DNA from: Caryophanales bacterium
Lineage (GTDB): Bacteria; Bacillota_I; Bacilli_A; RFN20; CAG-826
Direction: 5' to 3'
Length of the DNA: 7,513 nucleotides
Assembly (NCBI GenBank): GCA_016280685.1
Contig: JAEEHE010000026.1
Coordinates: 1-7,513, forward strand
Of the stretch, positions 6,652 through 7,513 are shown in pieces. The position numbers and the translations under genes are program-made. The notes beneath the pieces are model-generated. The model saw nothing but the letters and a program-made list of their open reading frames with translations, made no database searches and had not been told where the DNA came from. Position 1 is the first letter of the stretch. Each line of letters begins with the position of its first letter.

Positions 6652-7513
6652 ATGAAAAGAGTATTCGAATTAGAATTCGAAGGAAAGAAATTCGTCGTCG
6701 AAGCTGGCGAAATCGCTAAGCAAGCTGATGGCGCTGTCCTCGTGAGATTAAACGAAACAGTTATTCTTTCCACCGCGTGTTGTTCTGATGAGCCTAAAGA
6801 AGGCGATTTCTTCCCCCTAACAGTTGGTTACGAAGAAAAGCAATACGCAGTTGGCAAAATTCCTGGTTCCTTCTGAAGAAGAGAAGGTAGAGCCGGTGAA
6901 CACGCCACATTAACCGCCAGACTCATTGACCGTCCTATTAGACCAATGTTCTCTGAAGGTTTTAGAAACGAAGTGCAAATCGTTAACACAGTATTGTCTG
7001 TCGATCAAGATTGCACACCTGAAATGACCGCAATGTTAGGTTCATCCTTAGCATTAGGCATTTCTGACATTCCATTTGATGGCCCAATCGCCGGTGTTCA
7101 AGTCGGTAGAGTTGATGGCAAATTCATCATCAACCCCACAGTGGAAGAAAAAGAACATAGTGACTTAAATTTATCCGTTGCTGGTACTAAAGATGCCATT
7201 AACATGGTCGAAGCTGGTGCGGATCAATTACCAGAAGATGTCATGCTCGATGCTTTAATGTTCGGTCATGAAGCTATTAAGAAATTATGTGCTTGGCAAG
7301 AAGAAATCATTAAAGAAATCGGTAAATCAAAAAGAGAAATCGAACTTTATAAGTGCGATCCCGAAATTGAAAAAGATGTTACCGATAGAGCTAATGAGAG
7401 ATTAAAGAAAGCTATTTCTATCTTTGATAAACTCGAAAGACAAGACGCTATCGATGCTATCGAAGATGAAATTTTAGATGACTATGATTCACGTAGCTAT
7501 CCAGATGAAAAAA
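6652..7513 (+). CDS. pnp: Polyribonucleotide nucleotidyltransferase (PNPase), 5' part, with in-frame TGA at codon 75 (3' end beyond window)
   Basis: PNPase is a trimeric 3'-5' phosphorolytic exoribonuclease. The start ATG has GAGGT (6641-6645) six bases upstream. Before the TGA, residues 1-74 match the first RNase PH domain: KRVFELEFEGKKFVVEAGEI, GAVLVRLNETVILSTA, FFPLTVGYEEKQYAVGKIPG and SF. After the TGA the same frame continues with RREGRAGEHATLTARLIDRP, IRPMF, LGSSLALGISDIPFDGPIAG and VMLDALMFGHEAIKKL, entering the helical linker domain, with no further stop in 212 codons. The whole is 287 codons plus one base. The family normally has a hydrophobic residue (Phe, Ile, Leu) at the TGA site. 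Trp215 uses TGG. If TGA stops, a useless 74-residue piece results; no good internal start with an SD is seen. I treat it as one gene. Recoding, an early-stage nonsense mutation and sequencing error remain open. Confidence 0.9.
6874..6876 (+). other. In-frame UGA inside the PNPase motif GSF-x-RREGR
   Basis: Codons TTC TGA AGA at 6871-6879 interrupt an otherwise intact PNPase frame. The adjoining motif on both sides is family-typical, so there is no frameshift: the stop replaces exactly one residue. UGA read as Trp (TGG to TGA, one transition) would give GSFWRREGR. No selenocysteine-type hairpin is evident just downstream, and the family has no Cys here. Confidence 0.9.

Follow-up and report, generated by a model that had tools for sequence, protein, structure and literature searches.

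The TGA codon that interrupts the PNPase gene pnp raises the question of whether UGA is recoded here, whether the code of the lineage is changing, or whether the codon is an error or a recent mutation. The given sequence does have an in-frame TGA at 6874-6876 of the window (the whole stretch of 7,513 nucleotides analysed here). The frame of pnp is open on both sides, for 74 codons upstream and 212 codons downstream, and the motif at the site reads GSF-stop-RREGR. Read through as one protein, pnp matched the NCBIfam PNPase model NF008805.1 over residues 5-278 (E 9.3e-105), and its score, 351.5 bits, stays under the cut-off for full-length proteins (471) because the window stops at residue 287. 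The match covers the length present, and the reading frame of this PNPase is interrupted at codon 75, where the TGA splits RNase_PH domain 1 into one half per piece ahead of RNase_PH_C. By its motif, the site was equated with F78 of E. coli in the FFRR channel loop, which, as described in PMC2723993, supports the RNA-stacking residue F77; the TGA site adjoins that residue. A net frameshift at the TGA was rejected because the frame before it is the same as the frame after it. A restart past the TGA was considered unlikely from visual inspection only: no ribosome-binding sequence was seen at the next in-frame ATG (6946), and a product starting there would lack half of RNase_PH domain 1.

The remaining features are collected in Table 1. 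The window has a G+C content of 36.6% and had no megablast match in 50,697 phage records, which gives no indication of a phage origin. Its tryptophan codons are five TGG, and the truB stop is the only other TGA within a gene. The fusion of a PP-loop ATPase domain with an acetyltransferase domain was alignable over at least 390 residues in L001, L003, L004, L007-L010, L016 and L031. The Rfam S15 leader match (RF00114) scored 30.9 bits, under the gathering score of 39.5, with an E value of 3.5e-4.

Table 1. Positions of features in the window
Feature	Position	Strand	Remarks
5'-open frame	1-300		No Pfam match
infB, rbfA, flavin-reductase-like gene, truB, ribF, rpsO			Further genes
PP-loop ATPase/GNAT fusion	3170-4366	-	TtcA-like PP-loop ATPase domain and GNAT acetyltransferase domain in one 398-residue protein
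truB terminal TGA	5278..5280	+	Overlaps ribF start
S15 leader match (RF00114)	6220-6321	+	Upstream of and into rpsO
pnp, first 287 codons	start 6652	+	
pnp 5' part, 74 codons ahead of TGA	6652..6873	+	First half of RNase_PH domain 1
In-frame TGA, residue 75	6874..6876	+	Second residue of FFRR-type channel loop; loop position by motif (as described in PMC2723993)
pnp downstream part, same frame, 212 codons to window end	6877..7512	+	Second half of RNase_PH domain 1, RNase_PH_C, start of PNPase RNA-binding (helical) domain

The site of the TGA in related pnp genes

The nearest named loci belong to uncultured Bacilli, several of which came, according to their titles, from the rumen or other gut samples, and six genomes of the nearest genus were compared (G001, G002, G003, G013, G014 and G015). 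The pnp region (6600-7513) is 81-91% identical in DNA to these six, and for faster genes such as truB and ribF the protein identity is about 70-83% in the four genomes compared (G001, G003, G013 and G015), which suggests that the window probably comes from another species than the six. The decoding results that follow (prfB, tRNA, Trp sites and SelB) are those of sister species and not of the window's own genome. At the protein level, the pnp 5' part is 96-99% identical in L001-L005, and the part after the TGA is 86-96% identical in L001-L015.

A genome scan for related pnp loci confirmed 513, of which the best 80 were compared. In these best 80, the residue at the TGA site is Leu in 51 and Ile in 29, none has a stop at the site or elsewhere inside the stretch, and 77 match the motif pattern around the site. 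Since the motif is matched in 77 of the 80 and all carry a sense codon without an internal stop, the interruption of the motif is not due to chance, and the initial observation of a single TGA splitting a conserved PNPase motif, with 212 same-frame codons downstream, is borne out. All six nearest-genus genomes have Leu at the site, so that the search for a UGA at the same pnp position in sister genomes, which the initial annotation had proposed, found none. Among the 95 relative genomes searched, 90 had a pnp match and none of these contained a TGA inside the matched stretch; the sole pnp match with internal stops was a contig-end piece in G036 with two TAA. Partial metagenome proteins (120 listed, 117 with a readable motif) have Leu in 106, Ile in 7, Asn in 3 and Phe in 1. 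The site had been described as a conserved hydrophobic position, normally Phe, Ile or Leu. This holds for the best 80 of the 513 loci, but not for two solved PNPases with Lys at the site (5yjj and 5xex) or for the 3 of 117 metagenome proteins with Asn.

No protein starting just after the TGA was found among the 120 listed metagenome proteins, and no product ending at the motif was found among 52 protein clusters, in which clustering at 90% can hide one. A search of viral contigs with the window pattern left open at one base gave no match to a same-species copy. P0032, a protein of 49 residues from a contig of 7,574 bases, carries Ile38, a residue that the window has and the compared genus members lack; the protein diverges from PNPase sequence past residue 47 and is thus uninformative on the TGA site.

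UGA and tRNA-Trp in the nearest genus

A code with UGA as Trp would go with loss of RF2, a UCA-anticodon tRNA-Trp and TGA at tryptophan sites, and none of the three was found in the sister genomes. The RF2 gene prfB scored over the cut-off, without internal stops, in all six genus genomes. The first search found it in 11 of 12 genomes (it was missed in G004 and has one internal TAA in G012), and RF2 is present in 14 of the 15 relatives searched overall. ARAGORN identified no UCA-anticodon tRNA among 23 tRNAs of the G001 stretches and 44 of the G003 stretches, assemblies that may be incomplete; tRNA-Trp(CCA) was present in G001, and no tRNA-Trp was seen in the G003 stretches. Likewise, no UCA-anticodon tRNA was found in 224 relative loci examined. 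The truB gene ends with TGA in the window and in two genus members (L001 and L085), and with TAA in L087.

Codons at conserved tryptophan sites were counted in parts of five relatives (G013, G015, G001, G014 and G058), using alignments of at least 50% identity and at least 100 residues and non-overlapping ORFs of at least 150 residues, on three genomes first and then on five. In the resulting 190,450 conserved codons, sites that are Trp in another genome were TGG in 1,142 cases, TGA in none and other codons in 181. Ten internal stops were flagged, of which three were TGA, all in G001, and none of the ten was flanked on each side by 8 identical residues out of 15. A looser count of all ORFs of at least 100 residues yielded numerous stops, with all three stop codons represented and some TGA at Trp positions (10 in G013, 5 in G015, none listed for G001), and was dropped because it included overlapping and antisense ORFs. 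Separately, a G001 gene that is otherwise 91% identical to G015 matches it poorly close to its start, and two TGA codons lie there (L271:15484-15508, - strand), perhaps owing to a local frameshift or a different start.

Taken together, these sequence comparisons suggest that the organism uses the standard code, with UGA a stop in the sister genomes. The window shares with the UGA=Trp code of Mycoplasmatales and Entomoplasmatales (table 4) that it comes from low-G+C Bacilli and that reading TGA as Trp opens its pnp, and UGA is the rarest stop in the five relatives (5-11% of gene ends), as would suit a reassignment in this lineage. Unlike in that code, the relatives have RF2, no UCA-anticodon tRNA-Trp seen and no TGA at Trp sites, their residue at the site is Leu rather than Trp, and truB ends with TGA. 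In addition, PMC8629427 describes uncultured genomes, once filed under Mycoplasmatales/Entomoplasmatales, that lack tRNA-UCA and mostly have RF2, and in which the Codetta authors take UGA as a stop. We therefore consider the probability of a reassignment of UGA to Trp to be negligible. The code transition raised by the initial annotation fails in the sister species; what it had named as speaking against recoding (an intact prfB, no UCA-anticodon tRNA-Trp and no other in-frame TGAs) is what the sister genomes have, as far as examined.

The annotation had also pointed to a near-cognate tRNA-Trp that reads UGA. G001, G013 and G015 share one and the same tRNA-Trp(CCA), with a 7-nt loop, A9, G24 and a 4-bp anticodon stem that results from A27 facing C43. 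G014 has a 5-bp stem, and no tRNA-Trp was found in G002 and G003, so that the 4-bp stem is not established genus-wide: the mismatched top pair was seen in sister species only, in three of the six genus genomes, and the near-cognate proposal is supported indirectly by these three and not by the others. In a survey that covered 50 (L175-L224) of the 74 relatives with a match, the 27:43 pair was paired in 33 and mismatched in 17 (11 A:C, 4 C:T and 2 T:C). Six of the mismatched relatives (G056, G036, G019, G058, G035 and G051) have C9 and A24, changes named in PMC13092985 as aiding UGA readthrough.

According to this 2026 paper, UGA readthrough in E. coli is increased by a tRNA-Trp(CCA) whose stem has 4 bp (C27A). 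It also reports that the 4-bp form is the only one in about 6.5% of bacterial genomes with the standard code, and that in 13 of 19 orders UGA is used less where this form occurs. Given such a share of standard-code genomes, a 4-bp stem by itself implies no recoding. TGA closes 52 of 731 genes in the three genus genomes with the 4-bp stem vs 28 of 264 in G014 with the 5-bp stem, a difference that is not convincing (Fisher p 0.086); in G058, also with a 4-bp stem, TGA is at 24 of 268 gene ends. The tRNAs of G001, G013 and G015 resemble the 'Blastocrithidia-like' tRNA-Trp(CCA) described in PMC13092985 in the mismatched 27:43 pair, the 7-nt loop, A9 and G24, but differ from that system in that UGA is not reassigned here. 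Should the TGA be real, and should the window's species carry this tRNA as well, full-length PNPase may still be produced to some extent, with Trp at the loop position. A further reading, which we hold to be highly unlikely, is that the 4-bp-stem tRNA-Trp(CCA) makes UGA leaky while RF2 is kept, so that a real pnp UGA would be tolerated or used with a readthrough-dependent PNPase level, which would place a standard-code Bacilli genus in an early state of ambiguous decoding.

Consensus error or recent nonsense allele

The timing of the TGA was approached through codon changes private to the window, which were counted in pnp against five genus members (all but G014). There are one nonsynonymous and two synonymous changes in the 74 codons before the site, and five nonsynonymous and 13 synonymous changes in the 212 codons after it; the numbers are small, and on these counts the codons past the TGA still look constrained on the window's branch. 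Constraint that continues beyond the TGA indicates that it arose late, as a consensus error or a recent nonsense allele. Seven genes together offer 954 positions that are invariant across the other genomes; at these the window shows 8 private changes, with the TGA as its sole radical one, and the five nearest genomes show 0-7, of which 0-1 are radical. About 5% of random single substitutions in the window genes would create a stop (1,086 of 21,348). A clean contig that underwent a single late event, be it an error or a fresh nonsense allele, would be expected to show this pattern.

The initial annotation had further suggested that PNPase is made only by readthrough of the UGA, as a new control layer on RNA decay. 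The frame and the constraint that persist past the TGA would fit such programmed readthrough, as would the suppressor-like tRNA-Trp in part of the genus, but the TGA is absent from the best 80 of the 513 loci and from the 90 relatives with pnp. A conserved readthrough was rejected in that the TGA is not common to any relative examined. A selenoprotein was also rejected: SelB was over the cut-off in none of the six genus genomes, whose weaker matches were interpreted as other translation GTPases, and shuffled sequences folded as well as the 67 nt from the UGA (z -0.06), so that no downstream hairpin beyond chance is present. With no conservation, no structure and no SelB over the cut-off, the control layer is unsupported, and we regard programmed readthrough as exceedingly improbable.

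Between the two late events, we favour a consensus error as the somewhat probable explanation, because none of the pnp genes found in relatives has such a stop and no well-flanked internal stop occurs in the compared parts of the five genomes. The TGA stands isolated and differs by just one base from the Leu codon of every genus member compared, and it is most likely an error in the consensus of what we infer to be a metagenome-type contig; the true gene would then yield a normal PNPase, and nothing unusual would happen. Against an error, the window shows, the TGA codon aside, no sign of a high error rate by its private and radical changes, and since none of the 10 internal stops in 190,450 codons was well flanked, error-made stops should be rare in comparable assemblies too. 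The passages retrieved from the literature on nonsense calls in assemblies held nothing decisive. The tentative alternative, which has an appreciable chance, is a real and recent nonsense allele, by which PNPase would be cut after 74 residues and lost, or made in small amounts via a leaky UGA read by a 4-bp-stem tRNA-Trp(CCA), with Trp in the channel loop. Such an allele fits a contig that is clean except for one isolated change, and it fits the A27:C43 mismatch, A9 and G24 of the tRNA in three sister genomes; PMC13092985 reports that in E. coli the signal of a UGA reporter rose about 2.5-fold with a 4-bp-stem tRNA-Trp (C27A). However, the mismatch tested there was A27:G43 and not A27:C43, C27A alone gave no readthrough in vitro according to work cited in the same paper, and the stem is 5-bp in G014, the deepest genus member, with no tRNA-Trp found in G002 and G003. 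The absence of an internal TGA from pnp in all 90 of the 95 relatives where it was found also argues against a real allele, as does the absence of a product ending at the motif from the protein clusters, with their clustering limit. As described in PMC7918605, in-frame stops with dN/dS <1 are widespread and mostly short-lived in bacteria, and the pnp TGA resembles those cases as a lone in-frame stop flanked on either side by conserved sequence that shows signs of purifying selection. The same study expects many such stops to be artefacts, and its large-scale part kept only stops common to at least two species, whereas the pnp TGA is in a single sequence.

Taken together, these results show that recoding or a code transition at the pnp TGA is not supported, and that an error or a recent unshared mutation is supported; from the original proposal of "recoding, code transition or error", the last part stands, widened to a recent nonsense mutation, and the other two lack support in the sister species. 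Recoding is only weakly supported by a lone in-frame UGA in a single contig, and comparison with sister genomes largely disposes of the claim. As a side lead of the analysis, these uncultured Bacilli, in which the tRNA-Trp(CCA) stem switches between 4 and 5 bp (17 of 50 mismatched) and RF2 is found in nearly all genomes searched (14 of 15), form a natural series for tests of UGA leakiness.
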